A stretch of DNA of 64,000 nt from a virus (IMGVR_UViG_3300047548_001236:124001-188000); one strand, 5' to 3'; counted from the stretch's first letter, positions 19,748 through 41,030 are shown. The notes: a model not told the origin generated them from the letters alone. Program-made: numbers and translations.

Positions 19748-19975
19748 ATGAAAGTTGTCGTTAATCCCAAGAACAACTTGACGGCTACTGTACAGGGTAA
19801 GAATTCTGTACTCGTCAACCAGTCGGGTCAGGTGATCCGTAGGTTGAGCGATTTGGCTGACGTTGATTTGACGGGTCTAGAAGATGGTTCTCTGTTGATA
19901 TATAGCACAACATCAGAAAAATTTGAAGCATCAAGATTACTAGAAAAACAAAACATTAACGGAGGACATTTCTGA
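19748..19975 (+). CDS. Small structural-cluster protein
   Basis: 75 residues, starting immediately after the previous stop and ending in a TGATG overlap with the following fibre gene. It begins MKVVVNPKNNLTATVQGKN and carries RRLSDLADVDLTGLEDGSLL and IYSTTSEKF. The phrase LxDLxDVDxxGxxDGxxLxY is common at the start of phage fibre proteins (as in modules that display tips), so it is probably a short fibre-base or adaptor protein. It always appears paired with the previous gene in genomes I recall. No other evidence of function is visible. Confidence 0.7.
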   Translation: MKVVVNPKNNLTATVQGKNSVLVNQSGQVIRRLSDLADVDLTGLEDGSLLIYSTTSEKFEASRLLEKQNINGGHF

Positions 19976-22854
19976 TGGCATCAACAATCAGAATTAAAAG
20001 GTCGGGAAGTACAGTTTCGCCAACGACTCTCGCGTCGGGCGAACTTGCATACTCCTGGGCAGCAGGAGCCGGGGGTAAACTATACCTAGGTACTGGAAGT
20101 GAAATCATTGCAGGTCAGGCACCTAACATCGATGTCATCGGTGGTAAGTTCTTCACTGACATGCTGGACCATACGGCTGGTACGCTAACAGCAAGCTCGG
20201 CAATTATTGTCGATGCAAATAGCAAAATTAATCAGCTGTTCGTCGATAACATCTCTGTCGACGGTAACACAATCACGACAACAGACCTGAACGGTAACTT
20301 GGTATTCAATACCAACGGAACGGGTGTATTTGACTTCTCGGGAAAGAGACTGACAAATCTCGCCGCTCCAGTTAATAGTGGTGACGCCGTCACACTAGGA
20401 TATCTGACGACTTCCTTTTCTAGCGCTCTCAACATAACGGGCGATACTGGCTCTGATTCAATATCGCTATTGTCTGAAACGCTAGACTTTAACGGTGGTA
20501 CAGGAATCTCTACTGCTGTCACGGCAAACACGGTAACGTTCAATCTGACCAATACCGGTGTAGCGGCTGGATCGTATGGATCTGCGACAGCAATTCCAAC
20601 ATTCACCGTCAACGCTCAAGGCCGTCTGACTGCAGCCGCTAACGTCAGCATTGCTATTCCTTCGACGCAGATCACTGATTTCACTGAGGCAGTGCAAGAC
20701 GTTGCTGGCGGAATGGTTAGCGGATCTACCCAAAATGGTATTTCTGTCACCTACGACGACAACACCGGTAAACTGAACTTTGACGTTAATGATCCAGTAA
20801 TTACGCTGTCGGGTGACGTTGCTGGTTCTGCGACAATGACCAATCTTGGTAACGTTACTATCACGACAACAATCCAAGCCAACTCCGTTGCTCTGGGTGT
20901 CGATACAACTGGTAACTATGTTGCCAGCCTGACGCAAGGGACAGGAGTATTCATCACAGGTGGTACTGGCGAAGGTTCTACTCCAACGATTGCAATTGGG
21001 CAAGACGTATCACCAACCGCAAACGTCGTGTTTGCTGGTGTTAACGTAACTGGTTCAATGTTGATTGACGGAAACCTGACTGTTTCAGGTAACACGTTCG
21101 TTGTCTCAACACAAACACTCGCTGTCCAAGACAACTTGATTTATTTGAACGAGGCGTCCACTGAAACTATCATCAACGCTGTAGGTGATGGGGATGATGT
21201 CGTTTATACCGTTTCAGGTGTCAATACGTTCAAAACTGGACAAAGTGTCACTGTCACGGGCGTTTCACCTTCGCAATATAACGTCAACAATGCTATCATC
21301 GCATTTTCTAACACCACAGCTTTCTCGGTTGCAAGTACAGCGACGGGAACATACGTGTCTGGTGGTACTGCATTCGCAAGAACAGCAGCAAACCCTGATC
21401 TTGGTTTTGTAGGTGGTTACGATGATGGAACCTACGCACATGCCGGTTTCTTTAGAGATGCGACCGACAACCGTTTCAAGGTGTTCACTGGTTATACTCT
21501 CGAACCAGAAGTTTTCATTGATACAGCAGATCCGTCGTTCAAACTTGCAGATATGCAAGCAAACACGTTCTACGGCGCTCTGTCTGGTAATGCATCTAGC
21601 GCATCGAAGCTGGAAACAGCTAGAACCATTTCACTCGGAGGAGATCTCAGCGGATCGACCTCGTTTGACGGTTCGACCAACGTTACGATCACAGCGTCCA
21701 TAAACGCCAACACGATCACCAACGCTGACATTGCTTCCAACGCTGCGATTGCGATCACGAAGCTGGCCGCTTCAACGATTTCGGGAATCTCCCTTGGCAA
21801 CAACCTGAACTCTGTAACGTTTAACAACAGCGGAACGGGAGCTGCTTCCGGTTCTACGTATAACGGTAGCACAGCCGTAACAATTTCACACAACACCATT
21901 GGCGCATCGCCTTTGGCAGGTTCGTCTTCGATAACAACAGTCGGTACGATCACTTCTGGTACATGGAACGGTTCGATTATCAGTCCGACGTATGGTGGCA
22001 CTGGTGTAAACAACGGTTCCAACACTCTTACCATCAACACTGCAAACGTCGCATTTACTGCTGCGGCTGGTGGCTCCTCATTAACACTGCCTGCAACTGG
22101 CACACTTGCTACGCTTGAAGGTAACGAAACGTTTACCGGGCAGAAGGCATTCAGCAGCGCCATAACCATGTCGACCACGACAGGAACCTTGTCGCTTGGT
22201 ACAAGCCAAACGACCGGCGTGTTCACCATGGGTGGCGTTTCTCAGACAGGTACGATCACGCTTGGACGTTCCACGGTTACTCAGACTGTTGACATCGCAG
22301 TTGGTGCAACGTCTACGGGCAACACCAAGACTGTCAACATCGGTACAAATGGAACTGCTGGATCCACGACCAACATCAACATCGGTTCGACCGCTGGCGG
22401 TACGACCGCAATCAGCAGCCCAACACTGACTGCAAACAACATTACTGCATCTGGAACCATAACAGGGACTCTTAGTGGCAACGCTACAACAGCATCTCGT
22501 CTGCAAACTGCACGTACGATTGCTCTGGCCGGAGATGTTGCAGGTTCTGTGTCGTTTGATGGATCGGCCAACGTTTCGATCACAACAACGATTCAGCCAA
22601 ACTCAGTTGCTCTGGGCACAGATACCACAGGCGACTATGTAGCGTTTGTTGCCAACACAGCTGGTTCGGGTGTTCTGGTTACAGGAACGGCTGGTGAAGG
22701 TGCAACCTTCACTGTATCTGGTATCAACGCAACGTTGACTGTCAAGGGTGTGGCATCGTTTGGCGGTTATGCTGACGACGCAAATACAGTGCGACAGTTC
22801 GCTGTGACAGGCGGAGACGTTTCGATAATTAACCTTGACGGCGGTTCGTTCTAA
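19975..22854 (+). CDS. Long tail fibre protein
   Basis: 959 residues of repetitive beta-rich sequence, rich in Thr, Gly, Asn and Ser. It opens with the fibre-start phrase IRIKRSGSTVSPTTLASGELAYSW, which links fibres to the virion in many T4-type phages. Repeated modules follow: DLSGSTSFDGSTNVTITASI near 555 and a second copy DVAGSVSFDGSANVSITTTI near 855, each followed by related text. SGNTFVVSTQTLAVQDNLIYLNEA near 370 is another recurrent fibre module. No chaperone domain is present, so trimerisation may rely on another protein. Clean GC-balanced codon use resembles the capsid genes. Confidence 0.8.
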   Translation: MASTIRIKRSGSTVSPTTLASGELAYSWAAGAGGKLYLGTGSEIIAGQAPNIDVIGGKFFTDMLDHTAGTLTASSAIIVDANSKINQLFVDNISVDGNTITTTDLNGNLVFNTNGTGVFDFSGKRLTNLAAPVNSGDAVTLGYLTTSFSSALNITGDTGSDSISLLSETLDFNGGTGISTAVTANTVTFNLTNTGVAAGSYGSATAIPTFTVNAQGRLTAAANVSIAIPSTQITDFTEAVQDVAGGMVSGSTQNGISVTYDDNTGKLNFDVNDPVITLSGDVAGSATMTNLGNVTITTTIQANSVALGVDTTGNYVASLTQGTGVFITGGTGEGSTPTIAIGQDVSPTANVVFAGVNVTGSMLIDGNLTVSGNTFVVSTQTLAVQDNLIYLNEASTETIINAVGDGDDVVYTVSGVNTFKTGQSVTVTGVSPSQYNVNNAIIAFSNTTAFSVASTATGTYVSGGTAFARTAANPDLGFVGGYDDGTYAHAGFFRDATDNRFKVFTGYTLEPEVFIDTADPSFKLADMQANTFYGALSGNASSASKLETARTISLGGDLSGSTSFDGSTNVTITASINANTITNADIASNAAIAITKLAASTISGISLGNNLNSVTFNNSGTGAASGSTYNGSTAVTISHNTIGASPLAGSSSITTVGTITSGTWNGSIISPTYGGTGVNNGSNTLTINTANVAFTAAAGGSSLTLPATGTLATLEGNETFTGQKAFSSAITMSTTTGTLSLGTSQTTGVFTMGGVSQTGTITLGRSTVTQTVDIAVGATSTGNTKTVNIGTNGTAGSTTNINIGSTAGGTTAISSPTLTANNITASGTITGTLSGNATTASRLQTARTIALAGDVAGSVSFDGSANVSITTTIQPNSVALGTDTTGDYVAFVANTAGSGVLVTGTAGEGATFTVSGINATLTVKGVASFGGYADDANTVRQFAVTGGDVSIINLDGGSF

Positions 22855-22865
22855 GGAGCAAGCAA

Positions 22866-23177
22866 ATGGCGATAGTATACACCTGGAAGATACTTCAAAT
22901 GGATAGAAACGTAGCTGACGACGGTGTTGTCGTTGCCCATTGGAGCTGCTTAGGTAAAGACGAAGTAACGGAAAATACAGACAGGGTGTACGGTTCTGTA
23001 TCGTTCACCCCAAATCCTGAAAGTCCCGATTTCATCCCATACGAAAACCTCACAGAAGAAATTGTTCTAGGATGGTTGTGGAACGGTAAAATCGACAAGC
23101 AGGAATATGAAAATGTTGTTGCTGCAACAATCCAAACGCTGAACAACCCTCCAACCGTATCAGGGCTCCCCTGGTAA
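22866..23177 (+). CDS. Small fibre-associated protein
   Basis: 103 residues, preceded by AAGGAG at a good distance. It begins MAIVYTWKILQMDRNVADDG and ends NPPTVSGLPW. The combination WxIxQxDR ... HWxC ... YGSVSFTP ... ending NPxxxxGLPW is a family I recall from cyanophage and other T4-type fibre clusters, of unknown function. It sits directly after the long fibre gene and before a hairpin terminator, so it probably acts with that fibre as an assembly factor or minor component. Confidence 0.7.
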   Translation: MAIVYTWKILQMDRNVADDGVVVAHWSCLGKDEVTENTDRVYGSVSFTPNPESPDFIPYENLTEEIVLGWLWNGKIDKQEYENVVAATIQTLNNPPTVSGLPW

Positions 23178-23192
23178 GTCCTACATAATCAC

Positions 23193-23212
23193 AAAAGCGT
23201 ATATACGCTTTT
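23193..23212. terminator. Palindromic hairpin with T-rich end
   Basis: A perfect 20-base palindrome (AAAAGCGTATATACGCTTTT) in the 62-base gap between two fibre genes. A-tract on one side and T-tract on the other allow termination in either direction. It fits a rho-independent terminator, although the stem is AU-rich in the centre. Confidence 0.55.
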
Positions 23213-23239
23213 CAAGTTATATAACAAACGTGAGGTCAC

Positions 23240-24511
23240 ATGACGGATACACTTATCAAACTGCGTAGAAGCGCAGTTCCTGGAAAAATACCATCAGATG
23301 CACAACTGCAGCTGGGTGAGGTCGCCATCAACACATATGATGGTAAGATGTTCTTCAAGCAATCGTCGACGTCGAACACAATCCTCCAAGTCGCAACAAC
23401 GTCTCTAAATTTAAGCGATTTTGCAAGCACCACCTCTGCACAGCTTGCTAGTATCATCAGCGATGAGATCGGTACTGGATCTCTCGTTTTTTCAAATGCA
23501 CCCACGCTAGTAACACCTGTCATTAACGGTAACACAACATTCGACAGTGGAACGCTGTTTATTGATTCGGTCAATAATAGAGTCGGTGTTGGAACTATAT
23601 CTCCCACACAACAATTTGAAGCGACTACCGGTAAATTTTCCAACGTCATCCTTGGTACAGACAGCGCTGATGCAAGCAAACGGTTGTCGATATTTTATGA
23701 TCCTGGTGTTCCCGGTGCAGTAATAGACGCTCCCAGCAACAGATTATTGATTCGTACGTTCGGTTCTGAAAGAATGAGAGTCGAGCAGACCGGATTCGTT
23801 GGAATAGGTAACACGGCACCGTCTGAAAGACTTCATGTTGACGGTAATATCAGACTTTCGGGAGCTGTTGTTGATTATGTCGGTTCTAAAGGAACGCTAG
23901 GACAGGTCCTCACATCTGACGGTTCAAAATCATACTGGGCTGACCCAACTGGCGGTGGTAGCGGTGGTATTGCTACAGCTTCACAATCAATTGTTCGCGA
24001 TATATTTACTGGCAACTCTGCTGCTTCGAGCTACACTCTTTCTACTACACCAATAGCAGAACGTTTTGTTATAGTTACCATAAACGGTATTGTTCAGCAA
24101 GATGCTGCATATAGTGTTGCAGGGACTTCGCTTGTTTTCGATGAGCCGCTTGCAAACACAGACGTGGTCGAGGCAAGAACGTTTGTTCCATACAACCCAT
24201 TTATGACGGATGCGTCTGCGACATTTGCCAACACATCGCCTAGTCAAGTTTTAGATACCTTTGACTCAACTTTGTATAGAACAGCTAAGTACCTGGTACA
24301 AATCGCCAACACGTCTTCCTATCAAGCGGCTGAGGTGTTGTTGATTCACGATGGTTCACAGGTATTCATTACTGAATATGCTCAACTGGCAACAGGAACG
24401 TCTCTTGGTGTAATCGACGCCGACATATCAGGTGGAAATGTCAGACTGCTTGTCAACCCATCATTTCCAAACGTCACGGCAAAATCAATCCGTTATAGCA
24501 TAGGTGTATGA
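23240..24511 (+). CDS. Tail fibre protein adjacent to the DGR target
   Basis: 423 residues. It starts with the fibre-base phrase TLIKLRRSAVPGKIPSDAQL and LGEVAINTYDGKMFFK, a well-known module at the N-terminus of phage fibres. The middle contains GVGTISPTQQFEATTGKF and ERLHVDGNIRLSG. The C-terminus (residues 250-423) resembles a beta-rich carrier domain with FVIVTINGIVQQDAAYSV. Its stop codon is one base before the ATG of the first DGR variable protein. The two are therefore probably translated together, and this fibre may carry the variable tip. That pairing is inferred. Confidence 0.75.
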   Translation: MTDTLIKLRRSAVPGKIPSDAQLQLGEVAINTYDGKMFFKQSSTSNTILQVATTSLNLSDFASTTSAQLASIISDEIGTGSLVFSNAPTLVTPVINGNTTFDSGTLFIDSVNNRVGVGTISPTQQFEATTGKFSNVILGTDSADASKRLSIFYDPGVPGAVIDAPSNRLLIRTFGSERMRVEQTGFVGIGNTAPSERLHVDGNIRLSGAVVDYVGSKGTLGQVLTSDGSKSYWADPTGGGSGGIATASQSIVRDIFTGNSAASSYTLSTTPIAERFVIVTINGIVQQDAAYSVAGTSLVFDEPLANTDVVEARTFVPYNPFMTDASATFANTSPSQVLDTFDSTLYRTAKYLVQIANTSSYQAAEVLLIHDGSQVFITEYAQLATGTSLGVIDADISGGNVRLLVNPSFPNVTAKSIRYSIGV

Positions 24512-24512
24512 C

Positions 24513-25484
24513 ATGACTACAAAAGTTAAACTAAGCAACTTGTCTCAAGAAGTGCTCGCAGGAGTTGGAGGTGGATCTGGCGGAAACGGAACATCTTCTG
24601 TAGACTTCCATAATATCGGCGGTGGCGTTGAAGTTACACACCGCTACATCGGAGCATATGACGCTTGTTTTTGGGATGCTACAGACGGGCTTTATAAAAG
24701 CGGGTTAAACTTAGATAATGCTACTAGTTTATTCAATACTGCTGAAGATCGACTAGCAAGCGTAAGTGGTATTTACCCTATTGTTGGCTTAACAAGAAAC
24801 GAAGCAAGGTTGATGGCAGCAAATAACGGGACAGGATGGAGACAGTTAGATTTTACACTAGCATCTGCCATTCAGCTACTTTATCTCGTAGAGTATCAAA
24901 CATTCTTTAGTCAAAATGTGTTAGGAGCAGGTAACACTAATGGAAGTTATATAGCAAGCAGTAGCAACCAAACAGACAGTCCACACACTATAGCAGGCGC
25001 TGGAAATGTGTTGGGTAACAGCAGTACCAATATTACAACAGGCGCAGGTGTAAATGCTAAACCTGGTACAAGTTTTATGAAGTATCGTGGAATCGAGAAC
25101 TTTTACGGTAATTGTTGGAATTGGGTTGACGGTCTAAACATTAATATAGGGACAGCCGGTACAGCATTCTATACCAACAATAGAGCAGATTTTATTGATG
25201 ACGTTTCAACAAATATGATTCTGTTAGCAAACAATATTGCAACCTCTTCTGGATTTATTCGCAATATTAATACAGGCAATCTGGGATTCTTACCGACTGA
25301 CACTGTGGGTGCGTCAAGTACAACTTATATAACTGATCAAGCATTTTTGACAACTTCATTAAACCGTGTCGCCCATCTCGGTGGTCTTGCGAATTCTGGT
25401 GTGGATGCTGGGGTTTTCTGCTGGGATCTGTCTAATGATTCGTCGCTTCGGCTTCGGTGTTTCGGTGCACGCGCCTGCTTCTAA
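24513..25484 (+). CDS. DGR variable target protein 1 (C-type-lectin/FGE-like tail adhesin)
   Basis: 323 residues from the ATG at 24513; a GTG 9 bases upstream overlaps the previous gene and is less likely. A Gly-rich hinge (GVGGGSGGNG, about 20-30) precedes a formylglycine-enzyme/C-type-lectin-like domain: RYIGAYDACFWDA, NGTGWRQLDFTLASAIQLL, YRGIENFYGNCWNWVDG. The last 36 residues are the variable region (GVDAGVFCW ... GARACF), the layout of Mtd-type DGR targets. The matching DNA (25369-25475) aligns to the template at 27111-27217 with changes almost only at template adenines. It is a paralogue of the protein at 25801. Role: receptor binding at a fibre tip (inferred). Confidence 0.9.
   Translation: MTTKVKLSNLSQEVLAGVGGGSGGNGTSSVDFHNIGGGVEVTHRYIGAYDACFWDATDGLYKSGLNLDNATSLFNTAEDRLASVSGIYPIVGLTRNEARLMAANNGTGWRQLDFTLASAIQLLYLVEYQTFFSQNVLGAGNTNGSYIASSSNQTDSPHTIAGAGNVLGNSSTNITTGAGVNAKPGTSFMKYRGIENFYGNCWNWVDGLNINIGTAGTAFYTNNRADFIDDVSTNMILLANNIATSSGFIRNINTGNLGFLPTDTVGASSTTYITDQAFLTTSLNRVAHLGGLANSGVDAGVFCWDLSNDSSLRLRCFGARACF
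25369..25475 (+). repeat. DGR variable repeat VR1
   Basis: 107 bases at the 3' end of target 1, aligned without gaps to the template 27111-27217. Of the template's 27 adenines, 18 are replaced here. Of 80 non-adenine positions only one differs (C to T). The strong adenine bias is the hallmark of DGR mutagenic retrohoming. Identity with the template ends at GCC, 25473-25475, where a hairpin region begins. Confidence 0.93.
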
Positions 25485-25533
25485 ACAGATGCAGACAACG
25501 ATCTGAAAGATCGTTGTCCGTGTATAGAAGCAG
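25475..25533 (+). repeat. Nested inverted repeat downstream of VR1
   Basis: Outer arms CTGCTTCTA (25475-25483) and TAGAAGCAG (25525-25533) enclose an inner stem of 11 bp (25494-25504 with 25508-25518) and a GAA loop. The outer arm includes the last codons and the stop of target 1. Known DGRs (Bordetella phage BPP-1) need a hairpin just after the variable repeat for target recognition; this is its likely counterpart. Confidence 0.85.
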
Positions 25534-25540
25534 ATAAATA
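25533..25540 (+). promoter_or_regulatory. Late promoter GATAAATA after VR1
   Basis: One mismatch to TATAAATA, touching the end of the nested inverted repeat and 12 bases before the ATG at 25553. It would start transcription of the small protein and target 2. Confidence 0.5.
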
Positions 25541-25552
25541 AAAGGAAAACAA

Positions 25553-25804
25553 ATGAAAAGCTACAGTCTACATCAACAACCAACATACAGCCCAAGTGGC
25601 AAGGAACTTAGGATTAATTTCAACCATCAATTAGTTGAAACAAGTAATGAATGGGAAGAAACATCGAGTATGCGGGTTTGTGATCAGATTCTGTTGTCTG
25701 TTACTGCTACTAGAGAACAGATTATAGACGCAATCAACCTAATCGATCCATCACAAGCCGAAACATTAGCAGACGGTTGGTTTAGACAAGAGGAAAAATT
25801 ATGA
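25553..25804 (+). CDS. Small DGR-linked protein A
   Basis: 83 residues, with AAAGGA before the ATG. Its stop overlaps the start of target 2 (ATGA), so it is translationally coupled to the variable protein. It is a distant paralogue of the 78-residue protein at 28374. Both share NHxxVE, a middle W/V..(A/C)D(Q/E)I segment, a TREQIIDAI-like helix and a final Trp-containing tail (DGWFRQEEKL here). It does not look like the helical accessory protein Avd of known DGRs. It may be a chaperone or subunit of the variable tail protein; the function is unknown. Confidence 0.75.
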   Translation: MKSYSLHQQPTYSPSGKELRINFNHQLVETSNEWEETSSMRVCDQILLSVTATREQIIDAINLIDPSQAETLADGWFRQEEKL

Positions 25805-26991
25805 ATGTAAGAATAGGCCCAGAAAATCGAACCCTTCTTAATCTAGGTTGGAATCAAGTAAACGATACCTATACACCAACAACAACTAGAAATACAGTGA
25901 GTGCAGTTCATCTCAGAATGCGCCGTTGTTTGCTCAATTTGAATGGTACAGTCAACTACTATCTTGATCCAAATGATAGTACCAAGAAAGCTGACGGGAC
26001 ACCTTCTGTTCTCACGGGTGCTGATGGATATGTGATGGTGGAAATACCCAAGTTTTCATTCAAATACACATACGCCGCAGGGCAGTATTTCTGGGAAGTA
26101 GTGATCGGTAAACGAGATGGCTACACACTTCACCCGGCATTCATAAAGGATGGGGTTGAAGTAGAGAACCGTTATATCGGTGCCTATGATGCCTGCGTAT
26201 GGGATGCGACTACCGATACATATATCAGCGGTCTAAACTTAGATAACTCAGATACATTGATTGACATTGCTGTTGATAGATTGGCAAGTGTATCCGGTGT
26301 TTATCCAATGGTTGGTCAGACTCGAGCAAGATTTAGATCACTTGCTGATAACAATGGTACGGGTTGGAGGCAGTTAGATTTTTGGCTAGCGAGCGCTGTT
26401 CAGCTCCTCTATCTGATTGAGTATGATACTTTTAAAAGCCAGCAAGTGTTAGGATTGGGTAATGTCAGTTCATCATATTTGACGTCTAGCAGCAATCAGT
26501 CGGATAGCCCTCACACTATCGCTGGTGCATCAAATGCGTTAGGTAATCGATCTACCAACGGAACGCAACCAAGCGCTGGTGCAAGACCTGGGATTGCTTA
26601 TATGAGTTATCGTGGAATCGAGAACTTTTACGGTAATTGTTGGAATTGGGTTGACGGGTTTAACCTGATTAATTTTGTAGCTTGGGTCACTAACAATAGA
26701 ACAAACTTTGTCGATGATGTAACAACAAATATGACTAATATCGGTACACTCGCAAGCACATCTGGATTTGCAACAGATATTGTCAATTATGGTGGTACAT
26801 TTTTACCGAGTACCGTGGGTGGGTCATCTACTACACGATTGACAGACCAACTATTTGTATCTTCTGGTAACCGTGTCGCCCGTCTCGGTGGTAGTGCGAA
26901 TCTTGGTGTGGATGCTGGGGTCTTCTGCTGGGCTCTGAATGATGATTCGTCGTATCGGAATCGGCCGATCGGTGCGCGCGCCTGCTTCTAA
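25801..26991 (+). CDS. DGR variable target protein 2 (C-type-lectin/FGE-like tail adhesin)
   Basis: 396 residues. It has its own N-terminal domain (1-120; MNVRIGPENRTLLNLGWNQV ... YYLDPNDSTKKADG) instead of the Gly hinge of target 1. From about residue 122 it aligns along its length with target 1: RYIGAYDACVWDA, NGTGWRQLDFWLASAVQLL, YRGIENFYGNCWNWVDG, then the variable C-terminus GVDAGVFCW ... GARACF. This is a C-type-lectin-like fold with a surface-exposed variable face, as known for Mtd and TvpA. The DNA from 26876 to 26982 is the second variable repeat. It is followed by the same nested hairpin as target 1. Probably a second diversifiable receptor-binding protein. Confidence 0.9.
   Translation: MNVRIGPENRTLLNLGWNQVNDTYTPTTTRNTVSAVHLRMRRCLLNLNGTVNYYLDPNDSTKKADGTPSVLTGADGYVMVEIPKFSFKYTYAAGQYFWEVVIGKRDGYTLHPAFIKDGVEVENRYIGAYDACVWDATTDTYISGLNLDNSDTLIDIAVDRLASVSGVYPMVGQTRARFRSLADNNGTGWRQLDFWLASAVQLLYLIEYDTFKSQQVLGLGNVSSSYLTSSSNQSDSPHTIAGASNALGNRSTNGTQPSAGARPGIAYMSYRGIENFYGNCWNWVDGFNLINFVAWVTNNRTNFVDDVTTNMTNIGTLASTSGFATDIVNYGGTFLPSTVGGSSTTRLTDQLFVSSGNRVARLGGSANLGVDAGVFCWALNDDSSYRNRPIGARACF
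26876..26982 (+). repeat. DGR variable repeat VR2
   Basis: 107 bases aligned without gaps to the template 27111-27217. 15 of 27 template adenines are changed and only one of 80 other positions differs (T to G). Apart from four shared A-to-G changes, the altered positions and bases differ from VR1, so the two repeats were rewritten independently. Confidence 0.93.
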
Positions 26992-27040
26992 ACAGATGCA
27001 GTCAACGATCTGAAAGATCGTTGTCCGTGTATAGAAGCAG
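26982..27040 (+). repeat. Nested inverted repeat downstream of VR2
   Basis: Same element as after VR1, with one base difference over about 60 bases. Outer arms are 26982-26990 and 27032-27040; the inner stem is 27003-27011 with 27015-27023 around a GAA loop. The template lacks it. Conservation at both targets and absence at the template is what a target-recognition element should show. Confidence 0.85.
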
Positions 27041-27048
27041 TATAAATA
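27041..27048 (+). promoter_or_regulatory. Late promoter TATAAATA upstream of the DGR template and RT
   Basis: Exact T4 late consensus directly after the VR2 hairpin and 63 bases before the template repeat. Transcripts from it would contain the template and the reverse transcriptase, tying the DGR to late infection. Confidence 0.75.
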
Positions 27049-27110
27049 AAACATGTGAAAGGAGAATACACTAATGATTAGAATAGGGGTGCAGTATCAA
27101 TGCCCAGTAT

Positions 27111-27217
27111 TCACCCATCTCGGTGGTAATGCGAATAATGGTGTGAATGCTGGGGTCTTCTACTGGAATCTGAATAATGATTCGTCGAATCGGAATCGGA
27201 ATATCGGTGCACACGCC
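27111..27217 (+). repeat. DGR template repeat TR
   Basis: 107-base donor copy of the two variable repeats. In the frame of the targets it has ten AAT codons (for example GVNAGVFYW, SSNRNRNIGAH). AAT can mutate at its adenines into many residues but never into a stop. It lacks the downstream nested hairpin and the target stop codon. A short frame runs through it from 27074 with a start resembling that of target 2 (MIRIG against MNVRIG), so it probably arose from a third, internally deleted target copy. It lies 110 bases before the RT gene, the usual order. Confidence 0.93.
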
Positions 27218-27327
27218 AATCCCCAAAGCAATGCTGTAAAGATACTGACTCCTCACCTCTTGGTGAAATCTGTCGCCACAAAAAGTTTGGTAGGGAAACC
27301 GAAGAACTTGGCTGGGGGATGCAGGAA
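27218..27327 (+). ncRNA. TR-RT spacer, probable 3' part of the DGR template RNA
   Basis: No gene fits this 110-base spacer. In known DGRs the RNA after the template is needed for cDNA priming. Visible structure includes a short hairpin (CACC/GGTG near 27256-27267) and a possible long-range pairing of ATCCCC (27219-27224) with GGGGAT (27315-27320). The latter would close the region and cover the first possible RT start. Structure and function are inferred. Confidence 0.45.
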
Positions 27328-28377
27328 ATGAAACGATACGGGAATCTATTTGAAAAAATCTGCGACTTAGATAATCTTCTACTTGCACATCAGAACGCTA
27401 GATTAGGAAAATCTAGCTATAAAGAAGTTCAAATGGTAGACAAAAATCCACGTTATTATGCTGAAAAACTAAGACATCTTTTACAATCTAAGACGTTTAC
27501 AACAAGTAAGTATCAAATATTCTGGAAAGATTGTGGAACTAAACAGAGATACATCTACAAGTTACCTTACTGGCCAGATAGAATAGTTCAACATGCTCTG
27601 ATGCAAATTGTAGAACCGATATTCACAAGGACTTTAATCCGTGATACTTTCCAGTCGATAAAAGAGAGAGGTACACACGATTGTAGAAAACGGCTTCAAA
27701 AAGCAATAGAAAATATCAAAGAAGACTCATATGTTTTAAACTTTGACATTAAGCAGTTTTACCCATCTGTCGACAATCAACTACTAAAAGTGTTAGTGAG
27801 ACGTAAAATCAAATGTAAAGATACACTTTGGTTGCTTGATGATATTATTGACTCAACAAAAGGTCTCCCTGTAGGAAACTACAGTAGCCAGATTTTAGGT
27901 AATTTATACTTATCTGCTATGGATCACTATGCAAAAGAAACTCTAGGAATCAAACACTATTTTAGATATTGCGATGATATAGTTATTCTCGCTGACACAA
28001 AAGAGCAATGTAATTTATATAAGAAAAAACTATTTAATATAGTCGATCGGTTAAAGTTAACTGTGAAAAGCAACTGGCAGGTTTTCCCGTTTTCAACAAG
28101 AGCGGTAGATTTTATTGGTTGGGTATTTTCGAAAAGCCGGGTGCGGCTTAGAAAGAGAACTGCGCGTAGATTCACAAATAAAGTTATGATGATAAAGAAG
28201 AATCACAGGCGAATATCACCGGCTCATGCTGTATGCTCTATTATGTCCTACTGGGGTCAGTTTAAACACATTAATTCAAAAAGACTCTGGAAACAGCACA
28301 TAGATAAAGAATTTATGAATAAGACAGATAAATTTTTCGATAAACAAAATCTATTTAGAGAGGTGATCTGCAAATGA
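27328..28377 (+). CDS. DGR-type reverse transcriptase
   Basis: 349 residues from the ATG at 27328 (MKRYGNLFEKICDLDN is the typical DGR-RT opening; an ATG 9 bases earlier is also possible). RT motifs in order: NFDIKQFYPS with the first catalytic Asp (138-147), LPVGNYSSQ (180-188), which fits the DGR-specific GxxxSQ motif 4, and the catalytic YCDD box (214-217), then FIGWVFSKSRVRLRK as the thumb start. Length and motifs fit group-II-intron-related DGR RTs that copy template RNA with errors at adenines. It looks more AT-rich than the capsid genes. The stop overlaps the next start (ATGA). No Avd gene is recognisable nearby. Confidence 0.93.
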   Translation: MKRYGNLFEKICDLDNLLLAHQNARLGKSSYKEVQMVDKNPRYYAEKLRHLLQSKTFTTSKYQIFWKDCGTKQRYIYKLPYWPDRIVQHALMQIVEPIFTRTLIRDTFQSIKERGTHDCRKRLQKAIENIKEDSYVLNFDIKQFYPSVDNQLLKVLVRRKIKCKDTLWLLDDIIDSTKGLPVGNYSSQILGNLYLSAMDHYAKETLGIKHYFRYCDDIVILADTKEQCNLYKKKLFNIVDRLKLTVKSNWQVFPFSTRAVDFIGWVFSKSRVRLRKRTARRFTNKVMMIKKNHRRISPAHAVCSIMSYWGQFKHINSKRLWKQHIDKEFMNKTDKFFDKQNLFREVICK

Positions 28378-28610
28378 TTAAAGTTCATTCAGACAACAAG
28401 CTAGAAACATTTCAAATACTAGGACCAATCATCCGAGTTCATTGGAACCACGAACAAGTTGAACAAGAAGAAATGGATAATGGTAAAAGAGTGACTTGGA
28501 TTGCCGATGAGATAGTTGTACCGTCAGATATCTCTACAGAAGAGTTGATAAAAACACTCGAGCAATACAATGCTCCTGTGAATGAAATAATGCAAGAGTG
28601 GAATAAATAA
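28374..28610 (+). CDS. Small DGR-linked protein B
   Basis: 78 residues, start overlapping the RT stop (ATGA). It shares the pattern NHxxVE ... W(I)ADEIVV ... STEELIKTLEQY ... W with the 83-residue protein beside target 2, so the two are paralogues. The cassette thus holds two copies, one next to a target and one next to the RT. It is shorter than known Avd proteins, and the predicted mix of strand and helix differs from the Avd four-helix bundle. A chaperone, fibre-assembly or DGR accessory role is possible; none is shown. Confidence 0.72.
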   Translation: MIKVHSDNKLETFQILGPIIRVHWNHEQVEQEEMDNGKRVTWIADEIVVPSDISTEELIKTLEQYNAPVNEIMQEWNK

Positions 28611-28639
28611 ACAAAAGGCGCCATTAGGGAGAGTGATCT

Positions 28640-31600
28640 ATGGCAAACGATAAAAGATTTGTAGCCAAGAATGGTCTAACTACTCAAAATATTTTGTTTG
28701 TAGATAATATCCAGTCTGCAAATAACACCGTTTTGATAGAAATGAAACCAACGAACGAGTTAGTCGTCGCTACAGATGAGCAAGCACTGGTTGTGTCAAA
28801 TACACCAGGTTCTATCCTCACAGTCAACGATTCTACTGGCATACCTACTATTCAGGTAACCGATTACGGTAATATTCTTGTTGGTGATCTTGTAGATAAC
28901 GGTGTAGATAAAATCCAAGCTAGTGGGAGTTTGTTTTCTGAAACCATAAAAACTTCCAAACTATCATTCAAGACTCAGCAAGGTTCAGATGTAATATCAT
29001 CTGAACTAACTAGTAACACTGAAGTTACGTTTATTGGTGATAGCAACGATATACTGTCAATGGGATTAGACCCTAATAGTTCACTTTTTACAGTCAACGA
29101 TATTTCTGGTGTGCCTTCGATTGAAGTTGTTGACGATGGTACTGTAAGATTAGCAGAAATTATCGGGAATGTCGGCGTTGGATTAGCGTCGCCGTCAGAA
29201 AAATTGCATGTGCAAGGAAATGTAAGAGCAACGTCGTTGATGGCTGCTAACGGTTCTGCTGCTTCCCCAGCCTTTGATTTTGCTGCTGACCCTAACACTG
29301 GTATGTTTTCTGCTGGAGCTGATACGATTGGGTTCTCTACGAACGGCACGATAGCGGCAGCTATTACATCGACAGGTAACCTGCGTCTGTTCAACACTGC
29401 CGGAACCTTCTACACGGAAATCTCCAACCAACCGACAGCTAATAACACTCTGACACTACCGGCCACAGGCAACGTGACCCTTGTGTCGGGAACGATGGTT
29501 CCAACTACTGGTACTGGCGCGACTGGAACGTGGGGTATCTCAGTAACTGGTAATGCGGCAACTGCAACCACATTACAAACCTCAAGAAATATCAATGGTA
29601 CACTTTTCAACGGTTCTGCTGATATTACGATACCGCGTGTAAGAGCAGCTGACGATCGTACTGTCGCACCGTCGGATTTCTTAACAGCGTATACTACTTT
29701 TGGATTTGGTTCATGGAATAACAATAATACCTCCCCCTATAGCGATTATTTAGTACTTCGCAACTATACAGACTCTACTGGCGGAAATGATAATATGCTA
29801 TCGTTCCGTAAAGATACGTTAGGCATAAGACTGTGGCAAGCACCATATGGCAATAACTCACCTTTCTCAACTTTTAAAGATGTAGCTTGGACAGACGGTA
29901 CTAATGCAACAGGCACTTGGAACATTAGCGTTTCTACGGCAAACAATGCTACCAATCTCAACGGGCAATCAGCTTCATATTATCTTGATTGGACCAATGT
30001 AACCAATAAGCCAGATCCTGTAATAACCCTGGCGGGCGATCTTACTGGTTCTGTTACTTTGACTGATTTAGGATCAGGCACACTCACTGCAACAATTGCC
30101 GCTAATTCAGTTGCTCTTGGCGCAGATACTACAGGTAATTATGTTGCTTCCCTTATACAGGGAACTGGTGTAACTATTACAAATAATACGGGTGAATCAG
30201 CTACACCGACGATTGCTATTGGACAAGACGTAAGTATATCTGCAAATGTCCAATTTGCAAATATGATTGTTTCTGGTGATCTAACAGTTAACGGTACGAC
30301 TACAACAATCAACACCACAAATCTTACCACAAAAGATACACTGATTGAACTTAACAGTGGAGCAAATACTAGTATCAATGATTCTGGTATTCTAATCAAT
30401 CGAGGATCCACTGGGGCTAATGCTTTTATTGGTTGGAATGAAACAACAGATAAATTTGTTGTAGGTACGACAACCGCAACTGGGAATACAACAGGTAACC
30501 TAGCTGTAACAGCTGGAACCTTAGTAGCTGCGTCATTTGAAGGTTCTTTGAGTGGTAATGCAACCACCTCAACTACCGCCAATAATATCGCTGGTGGAGT
30601 CGCTGGAGGGGTCCCTTATCAAAGTGGAGTTGGAACAACCGCTATAACAGCCGCAGGTACTGCCGGCCAGGTTTTTGTTTCTGCGGGTTCAAGTGCCCCA
30701 TCATGGCAGACGTTGACTCTTGAGAATATTCCTGATGCGTGGGTTAAACGTAGTGTCAAAGCAGCCACGACTGCAAATATTACTTTATCGGGTGCACAAA
30801 CTATCGACGGTGTTTCGGTAGTCGCAGGGGATAGAGTTCTTGTAAAGAACCAAACTGCTGCCGCTGAAAATGGTATCTATGTCGTAGCAGCGGGTGCTTG
30901 GACAAGAGCAGCTGATGCTAATATTTCATCAGAATTAGCAGCAGCAACTGTAGGTATTGACCAAGGTACTACAAACGGCGGTAAAACTTATGATACCGAT
31001 TTTAAGGGCACTGATACTCTTGGTACAACTGCAATGTCTTGGTACAGAGTATTAGATGCTGCTTCTATAGGTTCCGAAGTTCAAGCATATGATGCCGGTC
31101 TGCAATCCATTGCAGGTCTAACCACCGCGGCAGATCGTATGATATATACAACTGCAGCAGATACATATGCTGTTACTACATTAACAGCTGCTGGTAGAGC
31201 AATTCTAGACGATGCTGATGCTGCAGCCCAGCGCACTACACTTGGACTTGGAACGGCCAATAACGTCACCTTTGCAACTGTAACAGCTACAACATCTTTG
31301 ACTTCTCCATTACTGACTAATGCTGGTACTCTATCACTTTCAGCTACTGGTTCAAACGTCATTGCTGCATCAACAAATGGTTCAGAACGTTTACGTATTA
31401 CAGACACCGGTAGAGTAGGTATTGGCACTACAATTCCTACAACATCACTTCATGTAACTGCGACTCCCCCAGCAAGCATCCCTACTGCTGGGGCTGCTTC
31501 TTCACACGTAGCCATCGGAACAAATTCTTATGGGACGTCGATTGGTACCCTATCAAGCGGCAGAGGTTATATCCAGCAACAAAGATTTGATGGTAATACG

Positions 31601-31999
31601 GCTGTTTATGATCTTTTGCTCAATCCGAACGGCGGTAACGTAGGTATTGGCACAACAAATCCTTCGACAATTCTTCACGCAAATGGCGAAATAACTGCTA
31701 CGGACTTTAATACAACATCAGACCTAAATGTCAAAGAAAATATTGAAATTATACCAGATGCTGTTGTAAAAGTTTCTCAAATAAATGGTGTGACATTTAA
31801 TTTTAAAGCCGATAATACCAAGCAGAGACACGCAGGTGTTATTGCACAGGATGTAGAAAAGGTACTTCCTGAAGCCGTTAAAGAAATGTCGGATGGAATT
31901 AAACACGTTGCTTACGGAAACTTGATAGGTCTGCTTGTAGAAGCCATAAAAGATCAACAAAAACAAATAGATGAGCTAAAAGCTCTTATCAATAAATAA
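28640..31999 (+). CDS. Long tail fibre with S74 chaperone domain
   Basis: 1119 residues, with GGAGAG before the ATG. It is built of fibre modules: SEKLHVQGNVRATSL and DPNTGMFSAGADTIGF (residues 185-250, shared with the next gene), VNGTTTTINTTNLTTKDTLI (about 555-580), and a phage tail repeat with KNQTAAAENGIYVV (about 735). The C-terminus from about residue 1027 is an S74 intramolecular chaperone: SDLNVKENIE, HAGVIAQDVEKVLPEAV, VAYGNLIGLLVEAI and a terminal coiled coil. It uses more AT-rich codons than the fibre at 19975, suggesting a different recent origin. Probably a trimeric receptor-binding fibre, self-cleaved after folding. Confidence 0.83.
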   Translation: MANDKRFVAKNGLTTQNILFVDNIQSANNTVLIEMKPTNELVVATDEQALVVSNTPGSILTVNDSTGIPTIQVTDYGNILVGDLVDNGVDKIQASGSLFSETIKTSKLSFKTQQGSDVISSELTSNTEVTFIGDSNDILSMGLDPNSSLFTVNDISGVPSIEVVDDGTVRLAEIIGNVGVGLASPSEKLHVQGNVRATSLMAANGSAASPAFDFAADPNTGMFSAGADTIGFSTNGTIAAAITSTGNLRLFNTAGTFYTEISNQPTANNTLTLPATGNVTLVSGTMVPTTGTGATGTWGISVTGNAATATTLQTSRNINGTLFNGSADITIPRVRAADDRTVAPSDFLTAYTTFGFGSWNNNNTSPYSDYLVLRNYTDSTGGNDNMLSFRKDTLGIRLWQAPYGNNSPFSTFKDVAWTDGTNATGTWNISVSTANNATNLNGQSASYYLDWTNVTNKPDPVITLAGDLTGSVTLTDLGSGTLTATIAANSVALGADTTGNYVASLIQGTGVTITNNTGESATPTIAIGQDVSISANVQFANMIVSGDLTVNGTTTTINTTNLTTKDTLIELNSGANTSINDSGILINRGSTGANAFIGWNETTDKFVVGTTTATGNTTGNLAVTAGTLVAASFEGSLSGNATTSTTANNIAGGVAGGVPYQSGVGTTAITAAGTAGQVFVSAGSSAPSWQTLTLENIPDAWVKRSVKAATTANITLSGAQTIDGVSVVAGDRVLVKNQTAAAENGIYVVAAGAWTRAADANISSELAAATVGIDQGTTNGGKTYDTDFKGTDTLGTTAMSWYRVLDAASIGSEVQAYDAGLQSIAGLTTAADRMIYTTAADTYAVTTLTAAGRAILDDADAAAQRTTLGLGTANNVTFATVTATTSLTSPLLTNAGTLSLSATGSNVIAASTNGSERLRITDTGRVGIGTTIPTTSLHVTATPPASIPTAGAASSHVAIGTNSYGTSIGTLSSGRGYIQQQRFDGNTAVYDLLLNPNGGNVGIGTTNPSTILHANGEITATDFNTTSDLNVKENIEIIPDAVVKVSQINGVTFNFKADNTKQRHAGVIAQDVEKVLPEAVKEMSDGIKHVAYGNLIGLLVEAIKDQQKQIDELKALINK
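31991..31998 (+). promoter_or_regulatory. Possible late promoter AATAAATA
   Basis: One mismatch to consensus at the stop codon of the preceding fibre gene, 35 bases before the next ATG. It could be chance, as it overlaps the Asn-Lys-stop codons. Confidence 0.3.
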
Positions 32000-32033
32000 T
32001 AGAAAAGCCGAGTACTCAAAGGAGAGCGCGAAG

Positions 32034-35000
32034 ATGGCAATTAAGATTCAAGGCACAACAATACTTGACGATAACAGGAATTTGTTGTCGGGAAACACAA
32101 TCACAGCAACCTCGTTTGTGGGGCCGCTGGCCGGTAATGCTAACACTGTCACCAATGGCGTGTACACCATTGGTGACCAATCAATTGGCGGCGTAAAGAC
32201 ATTCACGGGTATTCCAGCTTTTAATGGTGGTGTTAGTGGTACAAGTGCCCCATTCACAGTTGATAGTACAACAGTTGTCACAAACCTGAATGCGGATTTA
32301 CTTGATGGACAAAATCTTGTGAGCACAGCTTCAACAGTAAATACTGTAGCTGGGCGCGATGGCGCAGGTGATATATATGCAAGGTTGATCAGAACAACGT
32401 ATACGGAAGATGGTGGCATTACATCGACGGCAGGCGTGCATATGCGAGTCAACGCGAATACTGACAACTATTCGCGCATAGTTACAGGCACGGGATTTGT
32501 AAACTGGCTTGAAAATTATGATGGCGCAGGATCAGGGCTTGACGCAGACTTACTTGATGGTGTACAGGGTGCAAGCTACCTCAGAAGCGATGCAGATGAC
32601 ACAGCATCGGGTCTAATAGCATTTGATAGAGGTGCTGCAAACTATACAGACGCTTTTGTAATACGAAGCGGAGCAGTAGCATCTGGGAATCCCGGACTAT
32701 TCTTCAAAAAGGCAGACTCAAATACGGTCCACATCACAATGTGGAACGGTTCTACAACGCAAGGGTCTTTGAGAGTAACTTCTACGACGACTGAAATAGA
32801 CTCATCAACTGCCATTTTCGGCGATGATGGTACTAACGGATACCTACAGCTAAACAGAGGAAATACAACAAATCCCGGTTACATTTCATTCCATACACCA
32901 AATAATGTAAGACGTTCATACATTGGATGGAACACTTCCAATAGAACCTCATTTGTTGCGGAAAATGGATGGGCCTGGAGCTTTACCGGTAATGTTAGTT
33001 TTGATAGCACTACTTTACATGTAGACTCCACTAACAACAGAGTTGGTATAGGGACACTAACACCAGCAGTATCATTAGATGTGTCTGGTAATATACGAGG
33101 CAGATCAACATTTGAGCTTGTCCCTGTTGGATCTGAAGATGCAGCAGTAGCAATTGGACAAGGTCGTAGTGCTAACGGATATGCGTATATCGATATGATA
33201 GGAGACACAACGTACACAGACTACGGGGTCCGTATAATACGAGGCAACACTGGTGCAAATGCATCTACTCAACTGATCCACAGAGGTACAGGGGGTTTCA
33301 GCTTCGAGGCTCTGGATGCGGGTCACCTGACATTCAAAACAACTAATATAGAGCGTGTGCGCATTAATAGCGCGGGCAATGTAGGTGTAGGTATTGATTC
33401 ACCGTCCGAAAGACTTCACGTTGAAGGTACTGCTCGTGCACTATCATTCGCATCAGCAAACGGCTCTGCCTCTACTCCTTCTTTCGATTTTGTCGCTGAT
33501 CCTAATACCGGTATGTATCTCGCTGCTGCTGACACAATTGGATTCGCTACAAATGGCACAACAGCTGCCCAATTTACGTCCACAGGCAATTTGAGACTTT
33601 TCAATTCCGCAGGCACTTTCTACACAGAACTAAGCAACTCTCCAACATCAAACACAACAGTGACGATCCCCGATATCAACGGGACAATGTCTATCATTAG
33701 ATCGGCAGCAACTGCTGGATATTTTGATACAAGCACGACAACGCCGACCGGCACGACACGTCTTAACTATGGTGGATATTTCTACCCAACGTTTATTAAC
33801 TTAGCCGGATCTGGTGATACTACTACTGCTGCCACACACTACTTTGTTGAAACCGGTACCGATGGATTCGTCAGACCAAAGACGCTTGCAAACGTTAGAA
33901 CTGAAATTGTGACAGGTGCTGCAATCAATGCCGGGCTTGGGACTGCATCGCCAGCAGCTATACTACACCCAACTCTCATCGACGCGGGTTCGAGCACAGC
34001 ACCAGCTGTACTTAGAATTGATCACCAAACAACTGGTACACCAACATCTGGTATTGGTGTTAGCATGCAATTCGGGGTAGAAACTGCAAGTACTCCAAAT
34101 CTGGAAGTGATAGGCGAAATCGCTGCAAGAACAACATCGGTATCTCCTGGCTTAGAAGACTCAGAATTGATATTCTACGGTATGCAAGGAGGTGTTCAAG
34201 ATGAGCGCTTTAGATCTAGATCAACTGGATTTACCATTGGTGGTATAGCACAGCCGCAAGCAACTTTGCATGTCCGTAATGCCATTGGTGGTGAATTTCA
34301 AGCTCCGACGCCACAACTCCGTCTTGAACAGAAATACATATCAGGCCGTGAGATTGGCGAAGGCCCCGCAATTGAATTTGCTGTGGAAGTGTCGGCGGGC
34401 AACATAAAACCAAGTGGACAAATTGCATCAGTAGCAAACGACCTTACACCTGGATCCGAAGTTTTCGATATGACATTCAGTACTCCGGGTACTGGTGCTC
34501 TACCATCCGAGAGTATGAGGATTACTGGAGGTGGTCGTGTACTCATAAATTCGACAGAAGCATATGGCAACATAGGTAGAGTACCTCGGCTTCAAGTTCA
34601 CACCGCAGGATTCATACGTGATTCACGTATTGGATCATTCAACTGGATTGACAACAACACAGGCGCAGGCATTGAATTTTATAAATCAAGATCAGGTACT
34701 AGAGGTACATTCGGAGTACTAACTTCTGGTGATATAATTGGCGAGTTACAATTTTATGGTGTTGATAGTGGGAATACATCCTTTTCAGAGGCGACGCGTA
34801 TTGTAACTCATGTCGATGCTGCACCAACGACAACAGGGGTACCAAGCCGTCTTTCATTCTTCACATCAGATACCACAGGTACACTTGCAGAGCGTATGAG
34901 AATTACATCTGGTGCAGAAGTCTGGATTGCTGGTACTACTGACCGCGGAGCATACAACCTTCAATGTAACGGCACCGGTGTTTGGGGTGCTGGTGCTTAT

Positions 35001-35321
35001 GTCAATGGTTCTGATGCTCGTATAAAAGACAACATTGAACCCATAGGATCATGTAAGGATGTTGTCAATGCGCTAAACCCAATAACCTTCCGTTATAAAC
35101 CAGACTTTTCTAACGATCAATCATTACAACCAGGTTTCATCGCGCAAGAATTGCAGGAAGCATTGAGCGATCAACCGTATCTCGAAGGGGTCGTTCAGGG
35201 TGGTCCAGAATATCTCAATGTGGCATATCAGACACTAATTCCAATTCTAACAAAAGCACTTCAAGAAGCAATGCAAGAAATTGCTGATCTCAAAGCACGA
35301 CTTGATGCTGCTAATCTTTGA
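32034..35321 (+). CDS. Long tail fibre with S74 chaperone domain
   Basis: 1095 residues, with AAAGGAGAG before the ATG. Features in order: an N-terminal fibre-attachment module (IKIQGTTILDDNRNLLSGNT), a DLLDGQNL-type module near residue 90 repeated near 170, the block SERLHVEGTARALSF ... DPNTGMYLAAADTIGF shared with the preceding gene (about 460-520), then beta-rich sections. From about residue 993 comes an S74 domain: SDARIKDNIEPIG, PGFIAQELQEAL, NVAYQTLIPILTKAL and a terminal coiled coil. Third S74 protein of the window and clearly a mosaic of exchangeable modules. Probably a side or tail fibre. Confidence 0.83.
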   Translation: MAIKIQGTTILDDNRNLLSGNTITATSFVGPLAGNANTVTNGVYTIGDQSIGGVKTFTGIPAFNGGVSGTSAPFTVDSTTVVTNLNADLLDGQNLVSTASTVNTVAGRDGAGDIYARLIRTTYTEDGGITSTAGVHMRVNANTDNYSRIVTGTGFVNWLENYDGAGSGLDADLLDGVQGASYLRSDADDTASGLIAFDRGAANYTDAFVIRSGAVASGNPGLFFKKADSNTVHITMWNGSTTQGSLRVTSTTTEIDSSTAIFGDDGTNGYLQLNRGNTTNPGYISFHTPNNVRRSYIGWNTSNRTSFVAENGWAWSFTGNVSFDSTTLHVDSTNNRVGIGTLTPAVSLDVSGNIRGRSTFELVPVGSEDAAVAIGQGRSANGYAYIDMIGDTTYTDYGVRIIRGNTGANASTQLIHRGTGGFSFEALDAGHLTFKTTNIERVRINSAGNVGVGIDSPSERLHVEGTARALSFASANGSASTPSFDFVADPNTGMYLAAADTIGFATNGTTAAQFTSTGNLRLFNSAGTFYTELSNSPTSNTTVTIPDINGTMSIIRSAATAGYFDTSTTTPTGTTRLNYGGYFYPTFINLAGSGDTTTAATHYFVETGTDGFVRPKTLANVRTEIVTGAAINAGLGTASPAAILHPTLIDAGSSTAPAVLRIDHQTTGTPTSGIGVSMQFGVETASTPNLEVIGEIAARTTSVSPGLEDSELIFYGMQGGVQDERFRSRSTGFTIGGIAQPQATLHVRNAIGGEFQAPTPQLRLEQKYISGREIGEGPAIEFAVEVSAGNIKPSGQIASVANDLTPGSEVFDMTFSTPGTGALPSESMRITGGGRVLINSTEAYGNIGRVPRLQVHTAGFIRDSRIGSFNWIDNNTGAGIEFYKSRSGTRGTFGVLTSGDIIGELQFYGVDSGNTSFSEATRIVTHVDAAPTTTGVPSRLSFFTSDTTGTLAERMRITSGAEVWIAGTTDRGAYNLQCNGTGVWGAGAYVNGSDARIKDNIEPIGSCKDVVNALNPITFRYKPDFSNDQSLQPGFIAQELQEALSDQPYLEGVVQGGPEYLNVAYQTLIPILTKALQEAMQEIADLKARLDAANL

Positions 35322-35337
35322 AATAAGGAACGAACAC

Positions 35338-35754
35338 ATGCAAATAGATGAAGCACTTCAAACCCTCAATGCTAAATTCAAATACAAGAATGATACTTTT
35401 CGTTGGCTAGATTACTGGCGAATAATGGCAAATGACGGAGATAAGTGGGAAGGTGATTGTGAAGATTATTCTTTGACCTTAGCATGGCTAGTATCAGATA
35501 AGGATATTCTCAAATTTTTATGGAATTTGATTTCTTTCAGATTTTTGATTTGGTACGTAAAGTCTCCGAATGGCGAAGGTCATGCTATTATAAAAATAGA
35601 TGGTCTTTATTATGATAATATCCAGAAAAAAGGTGTTGAAAAAAGCATACTAAAAGAGAAGGGATACAAATTTGTATATCCCTTTGTATTACCTCTCTTT
35701 TTGATAAAGATGATCTTAGCCTCTATATTCGGAGTTTTTATTAAGAGGCAGTAA
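35338..35754 (+). CDS. Transglutaminase-like cysteine peptidase-like protein with membrane segment
   Basis: 138 residues from the ATG at 35338, with AAGGA upstream; an earlier in-frame start would overlap the fibre gene. The motif WEGDCEDYSLTLAWL (Cys41), followed by GEGHAIIKIDGLYYDN (His82, Asp93), fits the Cys-His-Asp triad of bacterial transglutaminase-like cysteine proteinases (BTLCP). Residues 113-135 are a hydrophobic, probable membrane-spanning segment (VLPLFLIKMILASIFGVFI). Standing between fibre and neck genes, it may process a surface component or be a virion-associated hydrolase. The catalytic call is moderately sure; substrate unknown. Confidence 0.65.
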   Translation: MQIDEALQTLNAKFKYKNDTFRWLDYWRIMANDGDKWEGDCEDYSLTLAWLVSDKDILKFLWNLISFRFLIWYVKSPNGEGHAIIKIDGLYYDNIQKKGVEKSILKEKGYKFVYPFVLPLFLIKMILASIFGVFIKRQ

Positions 35755-39059: not shown

Positions 39060-39493
39060 ATGAAAAGAAAATAGCAGAGGTATTGGGACTGAGACCTCTT
39101 GATGAAGTGCCTCAAGAAGAAGCCAGTGTTCCCACTGTGGTTGAAATAATTGACGCCCCGCCCACTCCACTGGCCACGGCCCAGGAAGAGGTGATTGATG
39201 ATATTGAACTGGCGAAGCAGAACATATCAGAGCTGATGACTAAAGGGGTTGAATCGCTGGATGAACTCATGGCTGTTGCCAAGCAATCCCAGAATCCTCG
39301 TGCGTATGAAGTTGTATCAACTTTGATGAAAACTCTAATTGATGCCAATAAAGAATTTGTGGGCATGTCTGAGAAGAAGAAATATGCGAAAGAGGACCAT
39401 CCGGCAGGTCAGGCCACAACTAATGTGACAAATAACAACTTGATTCTGTCCACGACAGACATGTTGAAAATGATAAAGGGAGATATGGAGTGA
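39056..39493 (+). CDS. gp16: Small terminase subunit gp16
   Basis: 145 residues, overlapping gp15 by 4 bases and the next gene by 4 bases. The N-terminus is acidic and Pro-rich; the centre is helical (DDIELAKQNISELMTKGVES, SLDELMAVAKQSQNPRAYEV, VSTLMKTLIDANKEFVGM), which is the coiled-coil/HTH core of T4-type small terminases. The tail (TNNNLILSTTDMLKMIKGD) matches the common end of gp16 homologues. It regulates DNA recognition and packaging by the large terminase. Confidence 0.9.
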   Translation: MNEKKIAEVLGLRPLDEVPQEEASVPTVVEIIDAPPTPLATAQEEVIDDIELAKQNISELMTKGVESLDELMAVAKQSQNPRAYEVVSTLMKTLIDANKEFVGMSEKKKYAKEDHPAGQATTNVTNNNLILSTTDMLKMIKGDME

Positions 39494-40979: not shown

Positions 40980-40991
40980 ATTCCTTGGATT

Positions 40992-40999
40992 TATAAATA
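40992..40999 (+). promoter_or_regulatory. Late promoter TATAAATA for the GIY-YIG gene
   Basis: Exact consensus between the terminase N-half and the endonuclease gene. The expected start point falls about where the CCTCC arm of a ribosome-site-blocking hairpin (41000-41004) ends, so late transcripts would lack that arm. Confidence 0.75.
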
Positions 41000-41029
41000 C
41001 CTCCGCTAGTATATACCGAGGAGGGGTAT
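40997..41029 (+). promoter_or_regulatory. Hairpin covering the ribosome-binding site of the GIY-YIG gene
   Basis: ATACCTCC (40997-41004) can pair with GGA(GG)GGTAT (41020-41029, two-base bulge), hiding the GAGGAGGGG ribosome site. Read-through RNA from the terminase genes would fold this way, and RNA from the late promoter would not. T4 I-TevI and some other T4 genes are controlled by the same device; application here is inferred. Confidence 0.55.
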
Positions 41030-41030
41030 C

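Follow-up and report, generated by a model that had tools for sequence, protein, structure and literature searches.

The cassette described here is very probably a diversity-generating retroelement (DGR) that uses one template to diversify two paralogous tail proteins at their C-type-lectin tips. It lies in a 64,000-nucleotide stretch (the window: IMGVR_UViG_3300047548_001236, positions 124001–188000; coordinates below are counted from its first base, and all features are on the + strand) of a 282,855-base metagenome contig. The original prediction, a two-target DGR in a T4-type phage, is supported by the repeats, the reverse transcriptase (RT), the fold of the targets and the type of genome. 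The sequence evidence consists of a template repeat (TR), two variable repeats (VR1 and VR2), an adenine bias, an intact RT, hairpins behind the VRs, a covarying spacer, a predicted target fold and a T4-type genome, and it indicates a genuine DGR that is probably working.

VR1 (25369–25475) and VR2 (26876–26982) are at the 3' ends of targets 1 and 2, and TR is at 27111–27217, within a short ORF (27074–27331) that has a ribosome-binding site and a start like that of target 2 (MIRIG/MNVRIG). The three repeats are in one codon phase. Over 107 positions, 27 of which are template adenines, TR and VR1 show 19 differences, 18 at adenines and one (C>T) among the 80 other positions, while TR and VR2 show 16, of which 15 are at adenines and one (T>G) elsewhere; alignment reproduced to the base the coordinates and difference counts first proposed for the three repeats. 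The hypergeometric probability of such an adenine bias is 7e-13 for VR1 and 3e-10 for VR2. An unbiased scan of the region from 20 to 33 kb for ungapped repeats differing at a single type of base detected the A-biased pairs of TR with VR1 and with VR2, plus a weak G-type match, which is the TR/VR2 pair in the opposite reading, and no one-base-biased ungapped repeat was found from 33 to 64 kb. When the A positions were left open, a pattern search of the entire 282,855-base record gave exactly three copies, TR, VR1 and VR2, and no copy of the reversed TR pattern. An A is present in 17 of the 35 TR codons, none of the possible A substitutions yields a stop codon, and about 10^15 protein variants could be made from TR by adenine substitution. 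VR1 and VR2 are nevertheless not fully independent draws, because several A>G changes are identical in both.

Target 1 (24504–25484, starting at GTG 24504 or ATG 24513, both of which are possible) has a glycine-rich N terminus, and target 2 (25801–26991) has an N-terminal beta domain. They are paralogues, 61% identical, and both fall in PHROG 5302 (tail protein; E 5e-50 for target 1). TR looks as if it were derived from a shortened third target gene, represented by ORF 27074–27331. The paralogy of the targets and the location of TR inside an ORF resembling a shortened target would fit a history in which a gene was duplicated in tandem and selection later acted on the lectin tips, while the RT had no relation to the repeats. 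However, duplication and selection would not restrict changes to the A positions of one copy with the probabilities given above, nor would they hold the synonymous repeat positions identical, and the A-biased layout recurs in about 50 relatives. The base-specific pattern thus refutes this reading, to which we give practically no credence, and a DGR acting on both targets remains the preferred one.

A profile of the target family (39 members) matches TaqVP, the variable protein encoded by the DGR of Thermus aquaticus (PDB 5vf4, E 4e-7; PMC6328139). With the AlphaFold2 model of target 2 (pLDDT 88.6), Foldseek also gave TaqVP as the best match (E 1e-10), followed by Mtd (1yu4, E 3e-3), and formylglycine-generating enzyme was found as well. 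A C-type-lectin fold of the targets is therefore supported, since sequence profile and structure model agree. The two targets had been described as lectin-like from sequence, and the comparison of the predicted structure of target 2 with Mtd-type folds, which ranks TaqVP first and Mtd second, bears out this description; we infer that they bind receptors.

Nested inverted repeats are present directly behind both VRs. Behind VR1 (25476–25532), an outer 8-bp stem (25476–25483/25525–25532) surrounds an inner 11-bp stem with a GAA loop (25494–25518), and behind VR2 (26983–27039) the outer stem (26983–26990/27032–27039) surrounds an inner 9-bp stem, again with a GAA loop (27003–27023). The outer stem is TGCTTCTA/TAGAAGCA at both sites, and no copy of the inner 21 bases exists in the whole record apart from those behind the two VRs. 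The predicted DNA folds have energies of -17.1 kcal/mol (z -7.0) behind VR1 and -14.3 kcal/mol (z -6.3) behind VR2. The 3' noncoding flanks of the VRs are near-identical over about 60 bp, whereas the upstream coding DNA is far more diverged, so either the site is kept by selection or it is homogenised. Efficient homing in BPP-1 depends on a hairpin at the corresponding position, and a change in loop size abolished its function; phage DGR hairpins have a stem of 7–10 bp and a 4-nt GRNA loop (PMC3240598). The hairpins of the window, with stems of 9–11 bp located 20–28 bases behind both VRs, fit BPP-1 and the other phage DGRs by their stem, but their loop is GAA or TGAAA, hence 3 (or 5) nt and not a 4-nt GRNA. 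A plain terminator was considered for these hairpins and rejected, as the + strand has no T run behind them; a T-rich tail is found on the - strand only, and at one copy.

The RT (27319–28377, alternative start 27328) is a full-length RVT_1 protein of 352 amino acids that matches PHROG 1423 (E 2e-99) and has the YCDD motif intact, together with VGNYSSQ, which corresponds to the GxxxSQ motif originally read there. Among solved proteins, the BPP-1 DGR RT comes first (PDB 8ub7, 119 bits) and a group II intron RT next (52 bits). In a tree of the window RT and 33 others, it is placed with the DGR RTs, on the DGR side of a 100/100 split from group II intron RTs, as expected from its initial assignment. 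Its nearest relatives are RTs of IMG/VR contigs, at most 52% identical.

No member of the Avd family (PF05635) was found in the whole 282,855-base record. An Avd profile built from four Avd proteins recovered Avd-like genes in two phages left out of its construction, but matched nothing in the window or among the IMG/VR relatives. Avd is common but not universal among DGRs (PMC10053308), and BPP-1 requires it (PMC12875486). These searches point to an Avd-less DGR lineage, to which the cassette would belong.

The spacer between TR and RT (27218–27328) contains a structured RNA. Two helices (27253–27257/27262–27266 and 27283–27287/27305–27309, with inner pairs 27293–27294/27299–27300) are common to the window and 21 relatives (22 sequences); 10 of 12 pairs show compensatory changes, and the window retains every pair. 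The covariation score is 0.78 compared with 0.24 after shuffling (0/500), and sliding the partners destroys the signal. The window spacer matches Rfam RT-17 over its full length with 22.4 bits, under the gathering threshold of 40.4, and in a relative (L042) RT-17 is found at the same place above this threshold (42.7 bits). The window spacer is thus apparently a diverged RT-17 RNA, and the DGRs of this lineage may have RT-17 as their spacer RNA; a search on RT-17 in the literature library used gave no relevant paper. The BPP-1 spacer folds and recruits the RT–Avd complex (PMC12875486) and, by analogy, the window spacer is likely to recruit the RT.

These elements suggest the following model. 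Transcription of the cassette would give an RNA containing TR followed by the folded spacer; the RT would bind the spacer and copy TR into a cDNA with random bases opposite adenines; and this cDNA would replace VR1 or VR2, with the 3' end common to the repeats and the DNA hairpin behind the VR as guides. Up to 17 residues in the lectin tips of the two paralogous tail proteins would change in this way, which would allow the phage population to explore many receptor variants. Points against a working DGR are the lack of Avd, the deviant hairpin loop and the A>G changes common to both VRs. A DGR in decay, which formerly diversified the targets and is now inactive or serves one VR only, would account for a loop that departs from the GRNA consensus, and loss does happen in the lineage, as four relatives that keep an A-biased TR/VR pair (L015, L040, L050 and L066) have a truncated RT or none in the interval from TR to the small ORF; these cassettes have either lost their RT or are served from elsewhere. 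Nevertheless, in the window the RT is full length with an intact YCDD and the spacer RNA retains all its pairs. In addition, each VR is identical to TR at 79 of the 80 non-A positions while the remainder of the targets has diverged, which requires recent homing into both VRs. We therefore regard decay as unlikely and favour an active DGR.

Two homologous small ORFs (E 5e-4) accompany the cassette. The first (83 aa, 25553–25804) lies between the two targets and the second (78 aa, 28374–28610) overlaps the RT stop. They define a conserved family with a core of about 76 aa, often longer, which had 50 matches in the loci first examined, and which is encoded behind 61 of the 83 distinct RTs in the lineage and directly after 11 of the 32 targets without a neighbouring RT. 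Members follow the RT or a target in L020, L038, L013 and others, and in L072 one lies between target and RT. The family has no Pfam match and almost no PHROG match. The model of the 78-aa protein (AF2 pLDDT 93.6) has a beta-rich predicted fold, with which a PDB fold search gave nothing below E 0.001 and a search of a viral structure library gave weak uncharacterised and DUF4376 matches. The two ORFs were also considered as Avd, which was rejected on the lack of any Pfam or Avd profile match and on the beta-rich predicted fold. The presence of the family directly after RT-less targets weakens the idea of a pure RT accessory, and the distribution of the genes suggests that the small protein acts as a target partner, possibly during tail assembly, and that TR and RT were inserted into its operon. 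A role like that of Avd is less probable, though possible. In particular, we find it rather improbable that the small protein is the missing partner of an Avd-less lineage, acting with RT and spacer RNA or coupling homing to the target.

The cassette is located in a tail-fibre cluster (19975–35754; PHROG tail-fibre and Peptidase_S74 matches) between baseplate genes and gp13. Homologues of gp13, gp14, gp15, gp17, gp18, gp20, gp21 and gp23 are present in T4-type order, and the closest isolates are Sinorhizobium phages phiN3 and phiM12 (gp23 66% and sheath 44% identical), the latter with the same order gp18-17-17.2-16-15-14-13-tail fibre. The gp13–gp20, gp21 and gp23 homologues, together with this synteny, confirm the assignment to the T4 type. 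In the region 39490–42879, the gene for the terminase large subunit is split around a homing endonuclease ORF (41031–41750), and a second terminase-like ORF (39490–40098) precedes the split terminase, as does gp17.2 in phiM12. A nucleotide search of phage isolates gave no match, and a search for close relatives among viral contigs, with the single RT protein and with the VR DNA pattern, found none. No tyrosine or serine recombinase (integrase PF00589, resolvase PF00239) was detected in the whole record, which is perhaps incomplete, with positive controls, in keeping with the lack of lysogeny genes first noted in the window. By this absence the record, incomplete as it may be, would fit a virulent, non-lysogenic phage.

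The source of the record, a metagenome contig of 282,855 bases, and the fact that none of the IMG/VR relatives checked is a T4-type record combining this RT with gp23, would be compatible with a misassembly that attached the cassette to a T4-type contig. Several observations argue against it: the cassette lies inside the tail-fibre cluster, with baseplate genes on one side and gp13 on the other, at the position of the phiM12 tail fibres; its neighbours are all on the same strand, with one gene overlap on each side of target 1 and of target 2; and another T4-type contig with gp23 (L031, record G017, 87 kb) carries a target relative near gp13 and gp14 homologues. We consider an artefact very unlikely, and take the cassette to be a resident of this genome. 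Record G017 has an orphan target and no RT, as does a similar contig (L022), and it is the only one with the T4-type capsid gene gp23 among 99 distinct records checked, a count that says little on rarity because many of these records are short fragments.

Related cassettes are frequent. Among 80 IMG/VR relatives of the target, an A-biased TR/VR pair of their own was found in about 50; in L020 and L051, which belong to these, one TR is matched by two VRs. Dozens of contigs share the target family, the TR/VR pair and the RT. The 152 phage records with an RT match are at most 137 kb among the matches listed, and target relatives are also found in bacterial and archaeal assemblies (L172–L204, e.g. 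Deltaproteobacteria, Bacteroidota and Methanoperedens), some of which are likely proviral. More than 30,000 DGRs are known from metagenomes, with three mainly viral clades (PMC8144416); DGRs on lytic phages have been published (PMC7981956), about 13% of DGRs have two targets (PMC10743442), and a survey of 224 jumbo phages reported no lectin domain of the kind that DGR targets have (PMC7824862). The novelty is thus lower than the original prediction implied, since lytic-phage DGRs, two-target DGRs and IMG/VR cassettes of the same lineage are known. The cassette represents a known DGR lineage, of a type common in environmental phages, in a less usual setting, that of a T4-type phage, with no Avd and with a small protein conserved in most cassettes; no earlier case of a DGR in a T4-type phage was found in this analysis.

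T4-type phages serve as the reference for work on tail fibres, and they are thought to alter their host range via recombination and point mutation. A DGR in a T4-type tail-fibre cluster suggests that some of them could search receptor space by directed hypermutation, with two adhesins and one template. The record is a good lead on DGR function in a virulent, large myophage, and it draws attention to a DGR lineage that lacks Avd and has a covarying spacer RNA together with a small protein so far undescribed.

Among known systems, phiM12, a member of the T4 superfamily, resembles the window by its gp23, its sheath and its gene order from gp18 to the tail fibre, but it has ordinary tail-fibre genes at the place of the cassette and no RT annotated there. 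The layout of the cassette recurs on L020 (IMGVR_UViG_3300018420_000858), in the order target, small ORF, target, TR, RT, small ORF, with two A-biased VRs and an RT in the same supported clade of the tree; in contrast with the window, L020 is an 8-kb contig whose other genes resemble those of a different, smaller phage, its targets are fused to tail domains, and no hairpin was found behind its VRs. The DGRs of crAss-like phages and of Psychrobacillus phage Perkons have RTs 38–44% identical to that of the window, target relatives upstream and an A-biased TR/VR pair, but a single target, and they belong to other phage groups, with sizes of at most 137 kb among the records listed. The Thermus aquaticus DGR shares the target fold, TaqVP being the best structural and profile match, whereas it has an avd gene (PMC6328139) and a single target, and is carried by a prophage. 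Finally, the window differs from the BPP-1 DGR (mtd, avd, TR, brt) by having two targets instead of one, no Avd, a GAA loop instead of GRNA and an RT only about 31% identical, in a T4-type phage devoid of integrase, yet the two have in common A-specific changes in a 3' VR, the type of RT, a C-type-lectin target, a hairpin behind the VR and a spacer between TR and RT.
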